Positions 26,801-34,442 of a DNA stretch of 64,000 nt are shown in pieces. A program made the position numbers and the translations under genes. Source of the DNA: Pseudooceanicola nanhaiensis (lineage in GTDB: Bacteria; Pseudomonadota; Alphaproteobacteria; Rhodobacterales; Rhodobacteraceae); contig NZ_JAIUZP010000001.1 in the NCBI RefSeq assembly GCF_020171315.1, forward strand, positions 496,001 to 560,000, in the 5' to 3' direction. Below the pieces are notes generated by a model, which did not search any database, was not told the origin of the DNA, and worked only from the letters and a program-made list of their open reading frames with translations. Numbering within the stretch: the first letter of the stretch is position 1; each line of letters starts with the position of its first letter.

Positions 26801-26817
26801 GTATCGCTTGGCGATAC
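26801..26817. promoter_or_regulatory. IclR-type operator GTATCG-N5-CGATAC upstream of the penicillin-acylase gene
   Basis: Perfect 6-bp inverted repeat GTATCG (26801-26806) / CGATAC (26812-26817), 43 bases before the chosen start codon. The identical arms and spacer length recur at 30409-30425, directly upstream of the IclR gene at 29620-30384. A Pribnow-like or -35 element cannot be placed with confidence, but the position is that of a repressor site. Confidence 0.7.
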
Positions 26818-26860
26818 GGTTCAGCTTATGCCCCGCGCGGGGCCATTCATGGGGACGAAC

Positions 26861-29200
26861 ATGCCGAACGACACCACGACGGACCATCCGCTTCAGGGGC
26901 TCGACGGCCCGGTCGAGATCAAGGTGGACGAACACGGCGTCGCCCACATCCGGGCGGGCTCCAAGGGCGATCTCTTCTTTGCGCAGGGCTTCAACGCCGC
27001 GCGCGACCGGCTCTGGCAGATCGACCTCTGGCGCAAGCGCGGCCTCGGGCTGCTGTCGCAGGATTTCGGCCCCGGCTACCTTGAGCAGGACCGCGGCGGG
27101 CGGCTCTTCCTCTACCGTGGCGACATGCAGCCGGAATGGGACGCCTACGCCCCCGACGCCGAGGAGATCTGCGAGGCCTTCGTGCGCGGCATCAACGCCT
27201 ACGTGGACGAGGCCATCGCGGGCCGCGCCGTGATGCCGCCGGAATTTGCGCTTGCGGGCACGCAGCCCTCGCACTGGCAGGCGGCGGACGTGGTGCGCAT
27301 CCGGACCCACACTCTGACGCGCAACGTGCTCCACGAAATGATGCGCAGCAACCTCATGGGGATGGCCGACGGCAAGGTCGATCGCCTGCGGACCGAGCTG
27401 AACCCGCCGGTAGAGCCCGATTTCGACCCCAGCGTGCCGCCGGGGTCGCTGCCGCCCTCCGTCCTCAACGATTTCAAGCTGGCCTGCGGGCCGGTGCGCT
27501 TCTCCGACGCACGCCTGAACGCCCCGCTGGAAGAGGCCGAGCGCTGGACGCAGGTCACGCCCCTTGGCGACGTGGTGCTGGTGGCTGAGAGCGAAGGCTC
27601 CAACAACTGGGTAATCTCGGGCGAACGCACCGCCACGGGCCGCCCGATCATGGCGACCGACCCGCACCGCACCCACGCGCTGCCCTCGCTGCGCTATGTC
27701 GTGCATCTGACCGCGCCGGGCATCGACGTGATCGGCATGGGCGAGCCCTCGGTGCCGGGCGTGATGATCGGCCACAATGACGCCATCGCCTTCGCGCTGA
27801 CGATCTTTGGCGCGGATCAGGAAGACATCATGGTCTATGACCTCGATCCCGAGAACCCGCTGCGCTACCGCTACAAGGACGGCTGGGCCGAGATGGAGGT
27901 GGTGACCGAGGTGATCCCCGTGAAGGGCGCCCCGGACCAGACCCGCGAGCTGCATTACACCTGCCACGGCCCGGTGATCAGCCGCGACGGCACCCGCGCC
28001 TATGGCATCAAGTCCGCATGGAGCGAACCCGGCAGCGCGCCCTACATGGCTTCGCTCGGGATCATGCGGGCCAAGGATCACGACGCCTACATGCAGGCGG
28101 TGCAGGGCTGGGGTACGCCTTCGGTCAACCACATCTATGCGGACCTCACCGGCAAGATCGGCTGGCAGACCCTTGGCGTCACCCCGATCCGTCCGAACTG
28201 GAACGGGTTGCTGCCGATGCCGGGCGACGGGCGGTTCGAATGGGCTGGCAAGCTGACGGTCGAGCAACTGCCCCATACCGTGAACCCCGAGCGCGGCTAT
28301 GTCGCCACGGCGAACGAGAAACGCACCCCCGAGGACTGGGATCACGAGACGCAGGCGGTGACCTTCGAATGGACTGACGGCAGCCGCGCGGCACGCATCC
28401 ATTCGGTGCTGGACGAGGACGACGCCCATACGATCGAGGCCGCCTGCAAACTGCAGAACGATGTCTTCTCGGACCCGGCGCGGCGCTGCAAGGCGGTGCT
28501 GGCGGGGCTGAGCTTCGAGGGTGCTGCGGCCGAGGCGGCGGCGCTTCTGGCGGGCTGGGATTGCTTCCTGACGGCAGAGTCCGGTGCGGGGCTCTTCTAC
28601 GAATACTGGATGGCCAAGCATCTGGTGCCTGCCATCGCGCGGGAGTTCGGCGCCAGCGACAAGGCCATCGGCCTCGTCGGCACCGGCGCGCCGCAGACCG
28701 TGCTGGCGATCCTCGAGAAGCCGTCCGAGTGGCTCGACGGTGGCGCTGCAACCCGTGACCGGCTGCTGGCGGAAAGCCTCGCCTCCGGCTGGGCTGACTG
28801 CCTGACGCGCTTTGGCGCGGACGTGGCGGGCTGGGCCTGGGGCGATCTGCACACGCTGCCGCTGCCCCATGCGCTTGCGGGCGCCTATCCCGAGGCCGAG
28901 GGCTGGTCGATCCCGGCGATGCCGCTTGGCGGGTCGGGGTCGACCCCGAACATGGCGGTCTACCGGGCGGGCGATTTCCAGACCTTCACCGGGCCGTCCT
29001 GCCGGATCGTCATGGACGTGGGCGACTGGGACAACTCGGTCTTCGTGAACCTGCCGGGGCAGTCGGGCGATCCGCGCTCGCCGCATTACACGGACATGAA
29101 GACCGACTGGCTGACCGGCGGCTATCGCCCGCTGCTCTATACCGCTGCGGCGGTGGATGCGGCGACGGAAGCGGTGGTGACACTGACGCCCGCGGGCTGA
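26861..29200 (+). CDS. Penicillin acylase family (Ntn) amidohydrolase, apparently cytoplasmic
   Basis: A 779-residue self-processing Ntn hydrolase. The alpha-chain begins EIKVDEHGVAHIRAGSKGDLFFAQGFNAARDRLWQID; the nucleophile is Ser247 in ESEGSNNWVISGERT, where cleavage after Gly246 would free the beta-chain; DPHRTHALPS, HVNDPVxxx-like NHIYADLTGKIGWQTLG and the C-terminal GQSGDPRSPHYTDM are family hallmarks. Unlike periplasmic penicillin acylases it shows no signal peptide from any plausible start (26828, 26849 or 26861; the last has GGGGA five bases upstream). Natural substrates in the family include N-acyl-homoserine lactones and other amides. Convergent with the TRAP/IclR operon that shares its operator sequence, which suggests import of an amide followed by intracellular hydrolysis. 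Confidence 0.9.
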   Translation: MPNDTTTDHPLQGLDGPVEIKVDEHGVAHIRAGSKGDLFFAQGFNAARDRLWQIDLWRKRGLGLLSQDFGPGYLEQDRGGRLFLYRGDMQPEWDAYAPDAEEICEAFVRGINAYVDEAIAGRAVMPPEFALAGTQPSHWQAADVVRIRTHTLTRNVLHEMMRSNLMGMADGKVDRLRTELNPPVEPDFDPSVPPGSLPPSVLNDFKLACGPVRFSDARLNAPLEEAERWTQVTPLGDVVLVAESEGSNNWVISGERTATGRPIMATDPHRTHALPSLRYVVHLTAPGIDVIGMGEPSVPGVMIGHNDAIAFALTIFGADQEDIMVYDLDPENPLRYRYKDGWAEMEVVTEVIPVKGAPDQTRELHYTCHGPVISRDGTRAYGIKSAWSEPGSAPYMASLGIMRAKDHDAYMQAVQGWGTPSVNHIYADLTGKIGWQTLGVTPIRPNWNGLLPMPGDGRFEWAGKLTVEQLPHTVNPERGYVATANEKRTPEDWDHETQAVTFEWTDGSRAARIHSVLDEDDAHTIEAACKLQNDVFSDPARRCKAVLAGLSFEGAAAEAAALLAGWDCFLTAESGAGLFYEYWMAKHLVPAIAREFGASDKAIGLVGTGAPQTVLAILEKPSEWLDGGAATRDRLLAESLASGWADCLTRFGADVAGWAWGDLHTLPLPHALAGAYPEAEGWSIPAMPLGGSGSTPNMAVYRAGDFQTFTGPSCRIVMDVGDWDNSVFVNLPGQSGDPRSPHYTDMKTDWLTGGYRPLLYTAAAVDAATEAVVTLTPAG

Positions 29201-29222
29201 TCTGCGGCGCGTGACAGGACAG

Positions 29223-29252
29223 GGGCCGTCTGCGAGGGCAGGCGGCCCTTTT
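29223..29252 (+). terminator. Intrinsic terminator after the penicillin-acylase gene
   Basis: GGGCCGTCTGC (29223-29233) pairs with GCAGGCGGCCC (29238-29248) with one G-T pair and a 4-base loop; followed by TTTTC. Confidence 0.85.
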
Positions 29253-29270
29253 CTGTGTCTGGTCCTGCAC

Positions 29271-29363
29271 CCTCTCCATCTGCCTCGCGCGCGACACTCG
29301 GGGAGGCGCAGAGCGCCCTACCCGGGGGAGGGTCGGGCGCGGCCCACTCGAAGCGCGGGCTGG
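29271..29363. repeat. Palindromic intergenic repeat, copy 1 of 2
   Basis: About 93 bases nearly identical to 29472-29565. Core: CGACACTCGGGGAGGCGCAG, AGCGCCCTACCCGGGGGAGG, GTCGGGCGCGGCCC. The ends GCGACACTC / GAGGGTCGGGC are imperfect inverted repeats, so the unit can fold into a long hairpin. Together the two copies fill most of the 419-base gap 29201-29619, which has no gene. Confidence 0.75.
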
Positions 29364-29471
29364 TGACTGACGGTTGGGGGACAGGGCGCGCGTGTTGGGA
29401 TGCTAGGGGCTCGGATACGTTGTGCGCCGGGATGGGAGTGTTTGGGCTGCGCGGATGAATGACGCCTCACA

Positions 29472-29565
29472 GCCTCTCCGTCTGCCCTGCGCCCGACACT
29501 CGGGGAGGCGCAGAGCGCCCTCCCCGGGGGGAGGGTCGGGCGCGGCCCGCGCGAAGCGCGGGCAG
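29472..29565. repeat. Palindromic intergenic repeat, copy 2 of 2
   Basis: Second copy, about 200 bases after the first in the same direction. GCCCGACACTCGGGGAG at one end pairs imperfectly with CTCCCC...GGAGGGTCGGGC at the other, and CCCGCGCGAAGCGCGGG gives an additional tight hairpin at the right edge. Confidence 0.75.
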
Positions 29566-29619
29566 GAGGCGGATAGAGGGTGGGGTGTGTGACGGGAGTG
29601 GTTGAGGTCTCGGCGCGTT

Positions 29620-30384
29620 TTAGCCCGACAGCGCATCTGCCGCGGCAATCGCGTGGGGCGCGAACCGCCGCCGGAACTCCGCCTCGGACCAATCCGCCAG
29701 CGTGCCCGCGATATGCACCGCCGCCACGGGCCGCCCGGCGCTATCGGTGACGGGTGCGGCCACCACCACCTCGCCCAGAAGCGTCTCCTCCACGACGCAG
29801 GCATAGCCCTGCTCGCGCGCTTCGTGGACCTTCTCCAGCACCGCGGCCGGATCGGTCAGCGTCTTGCGCGTCCGCGCCAGCATCTCGGACCGGGCCAGCA
29901 GCCGGTCCACCGCCGCATCCGCCATCAGCGCCATGCAGGCCCGCCCGCCGGAGGTGCAGAACGTGGGCAGCCGCCGCCCGGGCAGGGTGGCAAAGAAGGC
30001 CTCGCGCCGCGATTGCAGGCGCAGGGCATAGAGGATCGTCACACCGTCGAAGAGGCTCAGGTCCACCCGCTCGCCGCAGGTTTCGCGCAGGTTCCCCAGC
30101 ACCGGGGCGGCGCGTTCGATCAGCGGCGTGATCCGCAGGTAATCAAAGGCCCGGTCCAGCGCCCGCTTGCCCGGGACCAGCCCGCCCGCCGCACGTTCAA
30201 GGTAGCCGAGCCCGAGCAGCGTCTGGCAGATGCGCTGCGCCGCGCTCTTGTCGATGCCCGCCGCCTTGGCGATCTCCCCGAGCGAGAGGGCGCGCGGCTC
30301 GGCGCCCCAGACCTCCAGCACGGCAAAGGCCCGCGCCACGGAGCGCAGGAAGAGCCTCTCGTCGATCTCGCCGGTGTCCGTCAT
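29620..30384 (-). CDS. IclR-family regulator of the acylase/TRAP genes
   Basis: A 254-residue IclR protein: winged helix at about 10-75 (SVARAFAVLEVWGAEPRALSLGEIA, AGIDKSAAQRICQTLLGLGYLER) and effector domain at about 85-250 (SLFDGVTILYALRLQSRREAF, TSGGRACMALMAD, EQGYACVVEETLLGEVVVAAPV). The ATG at 30382-30384 has AGGAGG behind a palindrome GTATCG-N5-CGATAC; the same palindrome precedes the penicillin-acylase gene. It is the last gene of the dctP-dctQ-dctM-iclR minus-strand series, so it probably controls itself and the acylase. Confidence 0.92.
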   Translation of the reverse strand: MTDTGEIDERLFLRSVARAFAVLEVWGAEPRALSLGEIAKAAGIDKSAAQRICQTLLGLGYLERAAGGLVPGKRALDRAFDYLRITPLIERAAPVLGNLRETCGERVDLSLFDGVTILYALRLQSRREAFFATLPGRRLPTFCTSGGRACMALMADAAVDRLLARSEMLARTRKTLTDPAAVLEKVHEAREQGYACVVEETLLGEVVVAAPVTDSAGRPVAAVHIAGTLADWSEAEFRRRFAPHAIAAADALSG

Positions 30385-30408
30385 GCCGTGCCTCCTGTCG
30401 GGCCGAGC

Positions 30409-30425
30409 GTATCGGAGAGCGATAC
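30409..30425. promoter_or_regulatory. IclR-type operator GTATCG-N5-CGATAC upstream of iclR
   Basis: GTATCG (30409-30414), GAGAG, CGATAC (30420-30425). Located between the dctM stop and the iclR start, it is ideally placed for autoregulation. Same arms and spacing as at 26801-26817; spacer sequences differ, as expected for a dimer-binding site. Confidence 0.7.
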
Positions 30426-30437
30426 CGGCGGAAAGCC

Positions 30438-31736
30438 CTACATGGAGTTCGGCAGCGCCAGAACCAGCACGGGGAAGGCGATGATCAGCGCCACGCGGAC
30501 GATGTCCATCGCGACGAAGGGCAGCAGCCCGCGGAAGATTGTGCGCAGCTCCACGTCCTTCACGACCGAGCGCAGGACGAAGGCGTTCATGCCCACCGGC
30601 GGGGTGATGTAGCTGATCTCGGTGATCACCACGACGAAGACGCCGAACCAGATCAGGTCAAAGCCCTGCGCCGCCACGACCGGGTAGAAGATCGGCACCG
30701 TCAGCATGATCATCGACAGCCCCTCCAGCACGCAGCCGAGAAGGAGGTAGATCACGAGGATCGTCAGGATGACATGTAGCGGCGTGTCGCCGAAATAGGT
30801 CACGAACTGCTGCATGTCCTGCGTCATGCCGCTGAGGTTCACGTAGTTGGTGAAGGTCAGCGCGCCGAAGAGGATGAAGAACATCATCGCCGTGGTCTTG
30901 GCCGCGTCGAAGAGCGTGGCAAAGGTGGTGGCAAGGGAGAACTTGCCCGAGAGCATGGTCAGCAGCAGGGCGCCCGCCGCCCCCATGCCCGCGCTTTCGG
31001 TGGGAGTGAAGACGCCAAGGTAGATGCCGCCCATGACGAAGACGAAGAGCACGATGGCCCCCAGCGTGCCGCGCAGGGCGCGGAAACGCTCGGCCAGCGG
31101 CAGCTTGGGTTCGGCCACCAGCTCGATCCCGCGCAGCCGGATCGAAAGCGCCACGGCCAGCGTATAGCCGAGGATGCCGAGCAGCCCGGGCACGATCCCC
31201 GCGAGGAAGAGCTTGCCAATGTCCTGCTGGGTCATGATCCCGTAGAAGACGAGGATCACCGAGGGCGGGATCAGGATGCCCAAGGTGCCGCCCGCCGCGA
31301 TCGAGGCGGTGGAGAGGTCATCGGGATAGCCGAAGCGCCGCATCGAGGGCAGGGAGATCCGCGTCATCGTGGCCGCCGTCGCCATGGAGGACCCGCAGAC
31401 CGAGGAGAAGCCGCCGCAGGCGATCACGGTCGCCAGCGCCAGCCCGCCGCGGCGGTGGCGCAGCCAGGCGTGGGCCGCGTCGTAGAGGTCCCGCGCGATG
31501 CCCGATTGCACCACGAAGTTGCCCATCAGCAGGAAGAGCGGCAGCACCGAGAGCGAGTAGTTCCGCCCCTGGTCGAAGAAGGTGGTGCCCAGCAGGGACA
31601 GCGCGGGCGTCCAGCCGATGATGGCCACGGTGCCCAGCACCCCGATCAGCGTCAGCGCGATGGAGATCGGCAGGCCCACCAGCAGCAGGCCGAAGAGGGC
31701 GACCATGCCAAGGGGCCAGGAAGAAAGAAACGACAT
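30438..31736 (-). CDS. TRAP transporter large permease (DctM family)
   Basis: A 432-residue permease with about a dozen membrane segments. Motifs: LPLFLLMGNFVVQSGIARDLYDA, CGGFSSVCGSSMATAATMTRISLPSM, GGTLGILIPPSVILVFYGIMT, FTPTESAGMGAAGALL and ISYITPPVGMNAFVLRSV. I prefer the ATG at 31734-31736 since GAGG then sits six bases upstream; the ATG two codons earlier abuts that site. Downstream of the small permease and binding-protein genes on the same strand. Confidence 0.93.
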   Translation of the reverse strand: MSFLSSWPLGMVALFGLLLVGLPISIALTLIGVLGTVAIIGWTPALSLLGTTFFDQGRNYSLSVLPLFLLMGNFVVQSGIARDLYDAAHAWLRHRRGGLALATVIACGGFSSVCGSSMATAATMTRISLPSMRRFGYPDDLSTASIAAGGTLGILIPPSVILVFYGIMTQQDIGKLFLAGIVPGLLGILGYTLAVALSIRLRGIELVAEPKLPLAERFRALRGTLGAIVLFVFVMGGIYLGVFTPTESAGMGAAGALLLTMLSGKFSLATTFATLFDAAKTTAMMFFILFGALTFTNYVNLSGMTQDMQQFVTYFGDTPLHVILTILVIYLLLGCVLEGLSMIMLTVPIFYPVVAAQGFDLIWFGVFVVVITEISYITPPVGMNAFVLRSVVKDVELRTIFRGLLPFVAMDIVRVALIIAFPVLVLALPNSM

Positions 31737-31756
31737 CGGCATCCTCGGGGGAAGTC

Positions 31757-32293
31757 TCAGCGGCGCAGCACGTCGCGCAGGGCCACGTAGAGCGTGACGG
31801 CAACCGCCACGAAGGTACAGAGCGCACAGAGCCAGGTCACGGGCGCGACCGGCAGGCGCAGGGAGTTCGTCACGCCGTTGTAGCTGGCGATCTGCGAGCC
31901 ATAGACCCAGAGCCGCCAGCCCACCACCGCCAGCACGGCAGAGGTGACCAGCGCCAGCACCAGCTTGCGCCAGGGCTGCACCCAGTCCGGCAGGCGCGAG
32001 GTCAGCAGGTCCACGGTGACATGTTCATCGTCCAGCGACACGGCGGGCAGCCCGATGAAGACCACCGCCGCCAGCAGCAGCTCGGTCAGTTCGGTGGCAC
32101 CGACCAGCGGGCTGTTGAAGACATAGCGGCCGACCACGTCCACGACGGTCAGCCCCATCATCACCAGAAGGATCACCCCGCAGAGCACCGCCAGCACGCG
32201 GCGCGGCCAGGAGGCGCGCACCGCGGCATCGGGGGCCGGAGACGTTGCCGTCTCCGGGTCTTTCGCGAAATGCTCCGCCGCGTGAGGGCTCAT
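31757..32293 (-). CDS. TRAP transporter small permease (DctQ family)
   Basis: A 178-residue membrane protein with four hydrophobic segments (about 30-50, 65-85, 105-125 and 145-170). Family motif: FNSPLVGATELTELLLAAVVFIGLPAVSLDDEHVTVDL. Start at 32291-32293 overlaps the binding-protein stop by ATGA. The longer frame reaching 32575 is a shadow inside the binding-protein gene. Twenty bases separate it from the large permease start. Confidence 0.9.
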   Translation of the reverse strand: MSPHAAEHFAKDPETATSPAPDAAVRASWPRRVLAVLCGVILLVMMGLTVVDVVGRYVFNSPLVGATELTELLLAAVVFIGLPAVSLDDEHVTVDLLTSRLPDWVQPWRKLVLALVTSAVLAVVGWRLWVYGSQIASYNGVTNSLRLPVAPVTWLCALCTFVAVAVTLYVALRDVLRR

Positions 32294-33303
32294 TCGCTCT
32301 CCTTGGCGATCTCGGCCTTGAAGAGGTCGAGCGCGGCCTGCGCATCGACGCCGGTTTCCGCGACCTCGGCCAGCTTGGCCTCGACGATCGGGGCCACGGC
32401 CTCTTCCCAGGCGGCGACCTGTGCTTCGGTGGCGGGCGTGACCTCGATCTTGCCCTCCATCGCGGCCAGGCCCTTGGCATCCTGACGGTCCCACATCTGG
32501 CCGGCCATCCGGGCAAGAGCCTCGCCGGTCACGCCGTCGATCTGCTCTTGCTGCTCGGCGCTCAGGCTGTCCCACTTGGCCTTGTTCATGACGATGTAGA
32601 ACGAGGTGTTGTAGAGACCGTTCGGCACCGAGATGGCCTTAGTCAGCTGCGGGATCAGTCCGAAGAAGTTGACCGACTCGTAGGGGAAGAAGATCCCGTC
32701 CGCGACGCCCTGGCTGAGCAGCTCGTAGGTCTTGGAGGAAGGGCCCTCCACCGGCACGGCGCCAAGGGCGCTCGCGATCTCGTGGACGATGCCGCCGCCC
32801 ACGCGGATCTTCTGGCCCTGCATCACCTCTGCCGCGGTGATGTCGCCGTCCTTGAGGAAGATCTCGCCGGGGCCATGGGTGAAGACGGCCAGCACCTTGA
32901 CCTGGTCATATTCGCCCGCGTCCTTCAGCATCTGCTCGAAGACGCGCCAGTAGGCGACCGAAATCGCCTCGGCGCTTTCGCCGAGGAAGGGCAGTTCGGC
33001 CAGGTTGGTGGTGCGGAAGCGGCCCGGCGAATAGCCCTGCACGCCGAAGGTGATGTCGGCCACGCCGTTGACAGCGAAATCGAAATGCGCGGGCGGCGGC
33101 CCGAGGGGCGCGGGCAGGATGTTGGCGACGACCTCGCCACCGGTGGCTTCCTTGATCTGTTCCGTCATCGGCACGATCACCTCGGACACCAGCGGATGCG
33201 AGGGCGGCAGCCAGTTGGCCACCGTCAGCGTGGTCTGCGCCATGGCGGAACCGGCCAGCGTTACAGCGGCCGCAGTCGACAGCATCAGTCGTTTGAGGAA
33301 CAT
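32290..33303 (-). CDS. TRAP transporter substrate-binding protein (DctP family)
   Basis: A 337-residue periplasmic binding protein. The signal peptide MFLKRLMLSTAAAVTLAGSAMA is followed by QTTLTVANWLPPSHPL. Later blocks PGRFRTTNLAELPFLGESAEA, KIRVGGGIVHEIASALGAVPV and VADGIFFPYESVNFFGL match the TRAP branch (TAXI-unrelated) in which the usual Arg is replaced by a KIRV region; typical ligands are small organic acids. Start ATG behind AGGGAAAG. First gene of the operon, divergent from a MarR gene across a 16-base palindrome. Confidence 0.92.
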   Translation of the reverse strand: MFLKRLMLSTAAAVTLAGSAMAQTTLTVANWLPPSHPLVSEVIVPMTEQIKEATGGEVVANILPAPLGPPPAHFDFAVNGVADITFGVQGYSPGRFRTTNLAELPFLGESAEAISVAYWRVFEQMLKDAGEYDQVKVLAVFTHGPGEIFLKDGDITAAEVMQGQKIRVGGGIVHEIASALGAVPVEGPSSKTYELLSQGVADGIFFPYESVNFFGLIPQLTKAISVPNGLYNTSFYIVMNKAKWDSLSAEQQEQIDGVTGEALARMAGQMWDRQDAKGLAAMEGKIEVTPATEAQVAAWEEAVAPIVEAKLAEVAETGVDAQAALDLFKAEIAKESE

Positions 33304-33330
33304 TTTTCTTTCCCTGTTGTTGAGGTCGTA

Positions 33331-33346
33331 CGGGGGTAATCCCCCG
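33331..33346. promoter_or_regulatory. Perfect palindrome in the dctP-marR divergent region
   Basis: CGGGGG (33331-33336), TAAT, CCCCCG (33341-33346), 28 bases upstream of the dctP start. It could be a regulator site or a leader hairpin in the dctP mRNA. MarR sites are usually more AT-rich, so the assignment is open. A TTGACA at 33368-33373 gives a plausible -35 for the marR side. Confidence 0.4.
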
Positions 33347-33455
33347 GAATTCACATGAACATTCTTCTTTTTGACATATAACCGCCAAGACATGCTCGCA
33401 TCACGGGGCCACCTTGCCTAAAGATGCGGAATACTTGGACAAGAAAAGAGGCATA

Positions 33456-33923
33456 ATGGCCAGCCTGCCAGACGAAGCGACCGGAATGGAAGGGCAATTC
33501 CGCAAGACCGAGTGGCCTTTCTACTGGATCACCCGTACGTCCGCCCGATATTTCATGACCCTCGAGAAGCGCCTGAAGCCCATGGGCCTCGACGTGCCCC
33601 GCTGGCGGGTGCTCATGTCGCTCTACGAGGACGAGCATCTGAGCGTCTCGGAAATCGCCGACCTGTGCATCATCAAGCTGAACACGGCCACCAAGATCAT
33701 CCAGCGGATGGTGGCGGACGGGCTGGTGACGACACGCTCGCGGCCCACCGACGGGCGCGTGACCGAGGTCACGCTGACCGCCAAGGGCGACGCCAAGCGG
33801 CGCGAGGCGCGGGCGATTGCGGATGGCGTGTTCGAGGCGGCCTTCTCGGATCTGAGCGCCGAGGAACGCCAGGCGCTCAATACGCTGACGGAACGGGTTT
33901 TTCACCGGCTGGGCGATCTCTGA
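33456..33923 (+). CDS. MarR-family transcriptional regulator
   Basis: A 155-residue winged-helix regulator: PRWRVLMSLYEDEHLSVSEIADLCIIKLNTATKIIQRMVADGLVTTRSRPTDGRVTEVTLTAKG covers the helix-turn-helix and the beta-wing (about 47-115), flanked by dimerisation helices. The ATG at 33456 follows AGAGG; a TTG 42 bases upstream would add 14 residues. It is divergent from the TRAP binding-protein gene and likely regulates it, perhaps in response to an aromatic or other acid. Convergent with the flavin reductase gene. Confidence 0.88.
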   Translation: MASLPDEATGMEGQFRKTEWPFYWITRTSARYFMTLEKRLKPMGLDVPRWRVLMSLYEDEHLSVSEIADLCIIKLNTATKIIQRMVADGLVTTRSRPTDGRVTEVTLTAKGDAKRREARAIADGVFEAAFSDLSAEERQALNTLTERVFHRLGDL

Positions 33924-33941
33924 TCCCGCGCCGGGCACCTC

Positions 33942-34442
33942 TCAGAGCGCCTTGAGCGGGTGGAAGTCGCGGCCGAACCAGATCAGCGTTTCGGCCTGAC
34001 CCTCCGCCAGCTCCATCGCCTGAACCTCGCAGAAGAACACGGTGTGAGAGCCGACGGGGCTGTGATCGGTAATCTTGCAGTCGAAGGCGACGGAGGCATC
34101 GGTCAGCACCGGCGCGCCGGTGACGAGGGTGCGCCAACTGCCGGAGCGGAAGCGGTCATCCTCCTCGCGGCCCGCGAAGGCGGTGGAGAGCGCCTGATGC
34201 CGTCCGGCCAGCACGTTCACCGCCACGACGCCGTTGTCGCGGATGATGTCGTGCGTGCGCGAGGCGCGGTTCACGCAGATCAGCAGGGTGGGGGGCGTGT
34301 CGGTCACGGAACAGACGGCGGAGGCGGTCATGCCGTGCTTGCCTGCCGGGCCATCGGTTGCCAGCACCGTGATGGCCGCGCCCATGCGGGCCATGCCTTC
34401 CCGGTAGACCTCTGTCCGGATCGGGTCGCTCTGCTCGGTCAT
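33942..34442 (-). CDS. Flavin reductase family protein (HpaC type)
   Basis: A 166-residue flavin reductase domain protein: MARMGAAITVLATDGPAGKHGMTASAVCSVTDTPPTLLICVNRASRTHDIIRDNG matches the FMN-binding split-barrel family that supplies reduced flavin to two-component monooxygenases such as 4-hydroxyphenylacetate 3-monooxygenase. No oxygenase component is adjacent. Start at 34440-34442 is preceded by AAGGACGAG; the longer frame to 35237 is a shadow of the GNAT gene. The gene is convergent with marR. Confidence 0.9.
   Translation of the reverse strand: MTEQSDPIRTEVYREGMARMGAAITVLATDGPAGKHGMTASAVCSVTDTPPTLLICVNRASRTHDIIRDNGVVAVNVLAGRHQALSTAFAGREEDDRFRSGSWRTLVTGAPVLTDASVAFDCKITDHSPVGSHTVFFCEVQAMELAEGQAETLIWFGRDFHPLKAL

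Follow-up and report, generated by a model that had tools for sequence, protein, structure and literature searches.

A putative operator shared by an IclR-family regulator gene and a D-succinylase-like acylase gene in Pseudooceanicola nanhaiensis

Introduction

Does a palindrome standing before two neighbouring genes mark both as targets of the regulator that one of them encodes? The question is raised by a 64,000-nucleotide stretch of the Pseudooceanicola nanhaiensis genome (RefSeq assembly GCF_020171315.1, contig NZ_JAIUZP010000001.1, positions 496,001 to 560,000), called here the window, in which GTATCG-N5-CGATAC lies upstream of a penicillin-acylase-family gene and again upstream of iclR, a gene for an IclR-family regulator. 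An earlier note on this DNA had proposed that the IclR protein controls the acylase gene and that a neighbouring tripartite ATP-independent periplasmic (TRAP) importer, dctPQM, brings in the amide or acid on which the acylase acts. Comparison with relatives supports control of the acylase gene and of iclR itself, and does not support the part assigned to the importer. The degenerate palindrome GTATYG-N5-CRATAC is very probably the operator, as predicted from sequence, of an IclR-family regulator that occurs for the most part in Rhodobacteraceae. Control by IclR of its own gene and of the acylase gene is the best reading of the locus, with a probability of about 0.85, because the palindrome tracks the IclR clade and precedes acylase genes in other genera.

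This IclR-acylase regulon is apparently new and undescribed; it is of a well-known type, and there is nothing unusual in its layout, in which a local regulator governs its own gene and a catabolic gene next to it. Among open-licence papers nothing was found on IclR together with the acylase or with a Rhodobacteraceae regulon. None of those on IclR with MlrC or a peptide transporter describes, in its title or the start of its abstract, a GTATYG-N5-CRATAC regulon, and the half-site letters combined with IclR led to PMC10370305, whose available excerpt gives primers and probes made for RamB, a different regulator.

The Palindrome in the Genome

Both palindromes are exact (Table 1), as had been noted earlier, and no further exact copy is present in the window or elsewhere in the 4,817,738-base assembly (30 contigs); 100 shuffles of the window gave 0 copies. 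Operator 1 ends 43 bases before the acylase ATG at 26861, in agreement with the spacing first given, or 31 bases before an alternative in-frame ATG at 26849. The end of operator 2 is 24 bases from the iclR start codon (30384). The two copies are 3.6 kb apart around one regulator, which is remarkable, unlike the presence of a single copy. In a sample of 394 genomes of the family the exact palindrome had 60 copies in 55 genomes and a reversed control about 42 copies in about 40 (copies counted by eye); a single exact copy is unremarkable, therefore, since the control is not much rarer.

When one mismatch to GTATYG-N5-CRATAC was allowed, 12 places were found in the genome, the two exact ones and 10 with one mismatch. 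From the latter, 8 are inside predicted open reading frames and 2 are intergenic with unrelated-looking adjacent genes (by inspection, with no family scan), and all 10 were set aside.

The Palindrome in the IclR Clade

Thirty-three iclR loci were compared (the window, L006-L009, L011, L012 and L084-L109; L010, which duplicates L086, was left out). They came from 7 named records and from the 27 of the 394 family genomes, the window's own included, that had a match with an E value no worse than 1e-40. Within 300 bp upstream of iclR the motif GTATYG-N5-CRATAC is perfect at 18 of the 33 loci, has one mismatch at 12 and two at 3, that is, 30/33 carry it with at most one mismatch, while shuffled upstream regions (50 mononucleotide shuffles each) gave 0 perfect matches and 0.06% with one mismatch. 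Of the three loci with two mismatches one is L085; the others, L107 and L109, are distant and carry TTATYG-N5-CRATAA. In a dyad count made with no preset motif GTATCG-N5-CGATAC ranks first among six-letter arms. The spacing is almost fixed, as TATYG-Nx-CRATA occurs at 24/33 loci with x = 5, at 2 with x = 0 and at no more than 1 with any other x up to 15, and in 0/33 control stretches taken 2 kb downstream.

Among 453 other predicted genes at the 33 loci, 25 have a site at one mismatch or less; by eye, 19 of these genes are divergent from iclR and share the gap with it, 4 are acylase genes (one of them the cut-off end in L087, recognised by its coordinates), one diverges from an acylase gene and one encodes a binding protein. 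The nearest upstream gene of iclR is on the opposite strand at 26 loci and is an M81 (MlrC-type) gene at 13. In most relatives the putative operator lies before iclR, often in a gap common to it and a divergent gene for M81 or for a peptide-type ATP-binding cassette (ABC) importer. Residues S47, Q50, R51 and T55 of the helix-turn-helix (HTH) are invariant in all 33 IclR proteins.

The named records with IclR relatives include Oceanicola, Pseudaminobacter, Afifella and Pseudoroseomonas. In a class sample searched at E 1e-50, stricter than the 1e-40 used for the family, IclR was found in 1/327 genomes, the window's own. Further perfect operators were seen before a peptide-binding-protein gene in L011 (13629-15233) and, in L084, at an M81 gene's 5' end about 6.5 kb from iclR; with such sites the regulon of some relatives may extend further.

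The Operator at Acylase Genes

Seventeen acylases were examined (the window, L006-L009 and L113-L124). A site of their own at one mismatch or less within about 320 bp is present in 5/17, exact in the window and L006 and with one mismatch in L008, L009 and L115, the last (genome G323) with its acylase about 8.5 kb from iclR. Three more (G444, G437 and G315) lie directly behind iclR on the same strand, downstream of iclR's own site. None of the 5 acylases from genomes with no IclR match (G209, G384, G385, G409 and G420) has a site at one mismatch or less, which agrees with control by IclR. The scan of relatives for the palindrome before both genes, which the earlier note had suggested, hence found it conserved before iclR and partly so before the acylase gene. 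Between this genome and Maritimibacter alkaliphilus SY-2-18, 24/24 arm bases are kept against 4/10 spacer bases (by eye). The two genes also tend to occur together: IclR is present in 7 of the 12 acylase genomes other than the window's versus 26/393 overall (Fisher p 1.5e-6), with counts entered by hand and from searches that score few candidates per genome and may therefore miss some.

Two single observations concern these acylase genes. Upstream of the L007 acylase a gap-0 palindrome, GTATTGCAATAC, is found where relatives carry the operator with the 5-bp gap, and the L113 acylase homologue (G357 C8:19579-21879) has one in-frame TGA according to the search report.

Predicted Control by IclR

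The protein has the IclR HTH and IclR_C domains, the palindrome stands before its own gene and the same palindrome precedes the target gene in relatives, which is the arrangement of an autoregulated IclR regulon. IclR would bind its own operator just upstream of its start codon, leading to autoregulation, and the second operator, which ends 43 bp before the acylase ATG at 26861. Most likely it would repress both genes and release them when its C-terminal domain binds an effector, which may be the substrate amide or the acid formed from it. The nearest NCBIfam model is TIGR02431 (PcaR/PcaU/PobR), to whose local regulators the window IclR is alike in its HTH and effector domains and in having a site just before its own gene and before a catabolic gene; its score of 172.4 bits is below the cut-off of 284.75 and, by the model, it is not a PcaR/PcaU member. 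The neighbour genes of PcaR/PcaU presumably differ from those found here.

Several points weigh against control of iclR and the acylase gene by IclR. The HTH is barely more conserved than the whole protein (0.56 vs 0.49), and IclR is patchily distributed, being found in 2/22 genomes of the genus. Nine of the 17 acylases have neither their own site at one mismatch or less nor a place directly behind iclR. Besides the five from genomes with no IclR match, these nine include four (L007, L113, L119 and L122) that have IclR in the genome yet no qualifying acylase site; the L007 acylase is beside IclR, and in G357, G378 and G174 a distance of about 9 kb or 44 kb separates the two or they are on different contigs. 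In the comparison with SY-2-18 the flanks of the sites are also fairly conserved (172/220 and 153/175 aligned bases identical), for which reason this comparison alone is modest evidence. Finally, the direction of control is deduced from the position of the sites alone, and a promoter scan gave 0 consensus matches at the acylase gene and one weak match before iclR.

The TRAP Importer

The main alternative extends the regulon: IclR would control both the acylase gene and the TRAP importer, and the importer would bring in the amide or acid of the acylase. The arrangement of the genes invites it, because only 53 bp separate dctM from iclR on the same strand, transcription of dctPQM could run on into iclR, the order is kept in M. 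alkaliphilus SY-2-18 and an acylase with no signal peptide would need an importer. The earlier note had placed dctPQM convergent to iclR, which is wrong since both are on the minus strand, dctPQM (30438-33303) upstream of iclR in the order dctP-dctQ-dctM-site-iclR; it is the acylase gene that is convergent to iclR. In the dctP-MarR gap nothing comes closer to the operator than 3 mismatches, outside the genus the IclR relatives are mostly near ABC importers, and dctP or dctM is beside iclR at 2/33 iclR loci only, those of the window and of SY-2-18 (L006).

The conserved context of dctP speaks against it as well. DctP relatives at E 1e-60 are present in 89/345 family genomes, and the 12 closest in other genomes have 74-78% identity. 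The loci of these 12 contain genes for Rieske dioxygenase alpha and beta subunits (10), class II aldolase (9), a flavin-monooxygenase-like protein of the acyl-CoA-dehydrogenase fold (9), amidase (8), MarR (8) and flavin reductase (6 by clustering or 8 by tblastn), the families being named from one locus. Over about 8.5 kb, or as far as the contig end (reached in L163, L169, L172 and L173), no iclR or acylase homologue was found at any of them, nor an operator at one mismatch or less within about 8.5 kb of dctP; these 12 loci hence give no linkage of TRAP to iclR or acylase outside the genus. A further 17 dctP loci of lower identity, covered within 1.5 kb only, have no iclR, acylase or operator at one mismatch or less. 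On this conserved context, mostly that of Rieske-dioxygenase clusters, membership of the TRAP genes in the IclR regulon was rejected, and the extended regulon appears unlikely.

The window DctP matches the TRAP binding proteins 4p56, 7nr2 and 5i5p, which we take to be aromatic-acid binders. A search of open-licence papers found none on the structures 7NR2 and 4P56. The importer can be likened to aromatic-acid importers of the TarPQM type (PMC3610893) in that its closest relatives are mostly in Rieske-dioxygenase clusters; it differs from them in that the window copy has no dioxygenase gene seen next to it. Probably the TRAP importer forms an aromatic-acid system of its own, presumably controlled by the MarR regulator encoded beside it. 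Given that the closest dctP relatives are mostly in Rieske clusters, with no iclR, acylase or operator found nearby, TRAP, MarR and flavin reductase (30438-34442) are most likely the remnant of an aromatic-acid module adjoining iclR here and in SY-2-18.

The MarR protein itself, or some other regulator, might be the ligand of the palindromes instead of IclR, since a palindrome alone names no protein and the MarR gene is 3 kb away. This is highly improbable: the site tracks iclR at 30/33 loci, and no copy at one mismatch or less is within about 8.5 kb of dctP at the 12 closest TRAP loci, of which 8 have a MarR homologue. It is almost certain that the palindromes are neither RNA hairpins nor inverted repeats that arose by chance. 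In favour of such a reading, a transcript could form six-pair stems with loops of five bases, G031 and G203 carry the identical 17-mer GTATCGCTTGGCGATAC within ABC ATPase coding sequence, where it is due to chance, and exact copies are only modestly commoner in the family than the reversed control. Against it speak the place of the site, before one regulator family in different genera and with an almost constant gap, the divergent upstream gene at 26/33 iclR loci and the two copies 3.6 kb apart with none elsewhere in 4.8 Mb. IclR thus stays the most plausible ligand.

The Acylase

The window acylase is D-succinylase-like by similarity, and hydrolysis of N-succinyl-D-amino acids is its putative activity. 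It belongs to family S45, with a full-length PF01804 match (Table 1) and an N-terminal nucleophile Ser. Its best solved relative is the D-succinylase 7eby (656.5 bits over residues 10-781), and other solved relatives, penicillin G and glutaryl acylases, reach 169.2 bits or less. Ser251, numbered from ATG 26849, aligns with the first residue of the solved beta chains, and the GSNNW motif that includes it is present in 17/17 acylases. The D-succinylase of Cupriavidus sp. P4-10-C (7eby, 7ea4), also S45, gives a full-length match and has the same GSNNW region. According to the available portions of the sources, D-succinylase is used to make D-amino acids and also recognises the L-isomer (PMC7431475), and is an S45 member acting on D-amino acid compounds (PMC11241749). 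The PvdQ-type acyl-homoserine-lactone acylases are of the same superfamily; the window protein scores 53.2 bits against the NF051460 cut-off of 950 and does not count as a PvdQ under that model.

Before the matched part there are 35 residues in the solved D-succinylase chain and 9 in the window protein (from ATG 26849). The acylase and its relatives begin a few residues before the family match and have no obvious signal peptide, as judged by inspection and not by a signal-peptide program. The short N-terminus and the lack of an obvious signal peptide suggest that the acylase is cytoplasmic. As a D-succinylase-like N-terminal nucleophile hydrolase, it would act there on an imported N-acyl compound.

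Role of the Clade

Within 8 kb of iclR the 33 loci contain a peptide-type ABC permease or binding protein in 26 cases, an ABC ATPase of any kind in 27, M81 in 15, M20 amidohydrolase in 12 and the acylase in 8. The counts come from simple gene calling and clustering; names were given to the binding protein, M81 and M20 from a Pfam scan of a single representative of each, and to the permease and ATPase clusters by inspection. Because genes for ABC importers, M81 and M20 recur near iclR, the theme of the clade would be the uptake and hydrolysis of peptides or amides. The amide uptake-and-hydrolysis module proposed for this locus therefore holds as a general theme, and fails as regards the TRAP importer as a member. 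At the window locus no ABC, M81 or M20 genes were found near iclR in the clustering of the 33 loci, and iclR and the acylase gene would be the only part of this wider system present.

A more far-reaching scheme is tentative and rather doubtful. The clade would govern an undescribed marine Rhodobacteraceae pathway for the cytoplasmic cleavage of imported N-acylated amino acids or peptides, possibly N-succinyl-D-amino acids, comprising an ABC peptide importer, M81, M20 and a leaderless acylase, all governed by one operator; in the window genome the importer would have been lost or replaced.

The predicted regulon provides an operator and a compact set of targets for an IclR clade with no matching NCBIfam model. 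It also ties a D-succinylase-like acylase, a type that the excerpts of the literature describe as a biocatalyst, to a likely natural system for scavenging amides or peptides. With two sites, it would be an easy system in which to find the inducer, and hence the real substrate of such acylases.

Gene Layout at the Locus

The features of the locus are collected in Table 1. A terminator scan of the locus found none.

Table 1: Position of the predicted operators and genes, in window coordinates.
Feature	Position	Strand	Evidence or remark
Operator 1, GTATCG-N5-CGATAC, before acylase (putative)	26801-26817	none	exact, one of 2 in genome
Operator 2, GTATCG-N5-CGATAC, before iclR (putative)	30409-30425	none	exact; in the 53-bp gap dctM-iclR
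Acylase, family S45 / Penicil_amidase, D-succinylase-like	26861-29200	+	PF01804 638.7 bits; alternative in-frame start 26849
iclR, IclR-family regulator	29620-30384	-	PF01614 108 bits, PF09339 52.1 bits
dctM, TRAP importer	30438-31742	-	Pfam match (PF06808, PF04290, PF03480 jointly for dctM, dctQ, dctP)
dctQ, TRAP importer	31757-32293	-	Pfam match (jointly, as for dctM)
dctP, TRAP importer	32290-33303	-	Pfam match (jointly, as for dctM)
MarR-family regulator, divergent from dctP	33456-33923	+	PF12802/PF01047
Flavin reductase, TRAP-side module	33942-34442	-	PF01613 140 bits

The gap between the convergent ends of the acylase gene and iclR holds a duplication of about 100 bp (29268-29573), whose copies are 202-203 bp apart from start to start and 86-90% alike; its 27-base core occurs only twice in the genome.

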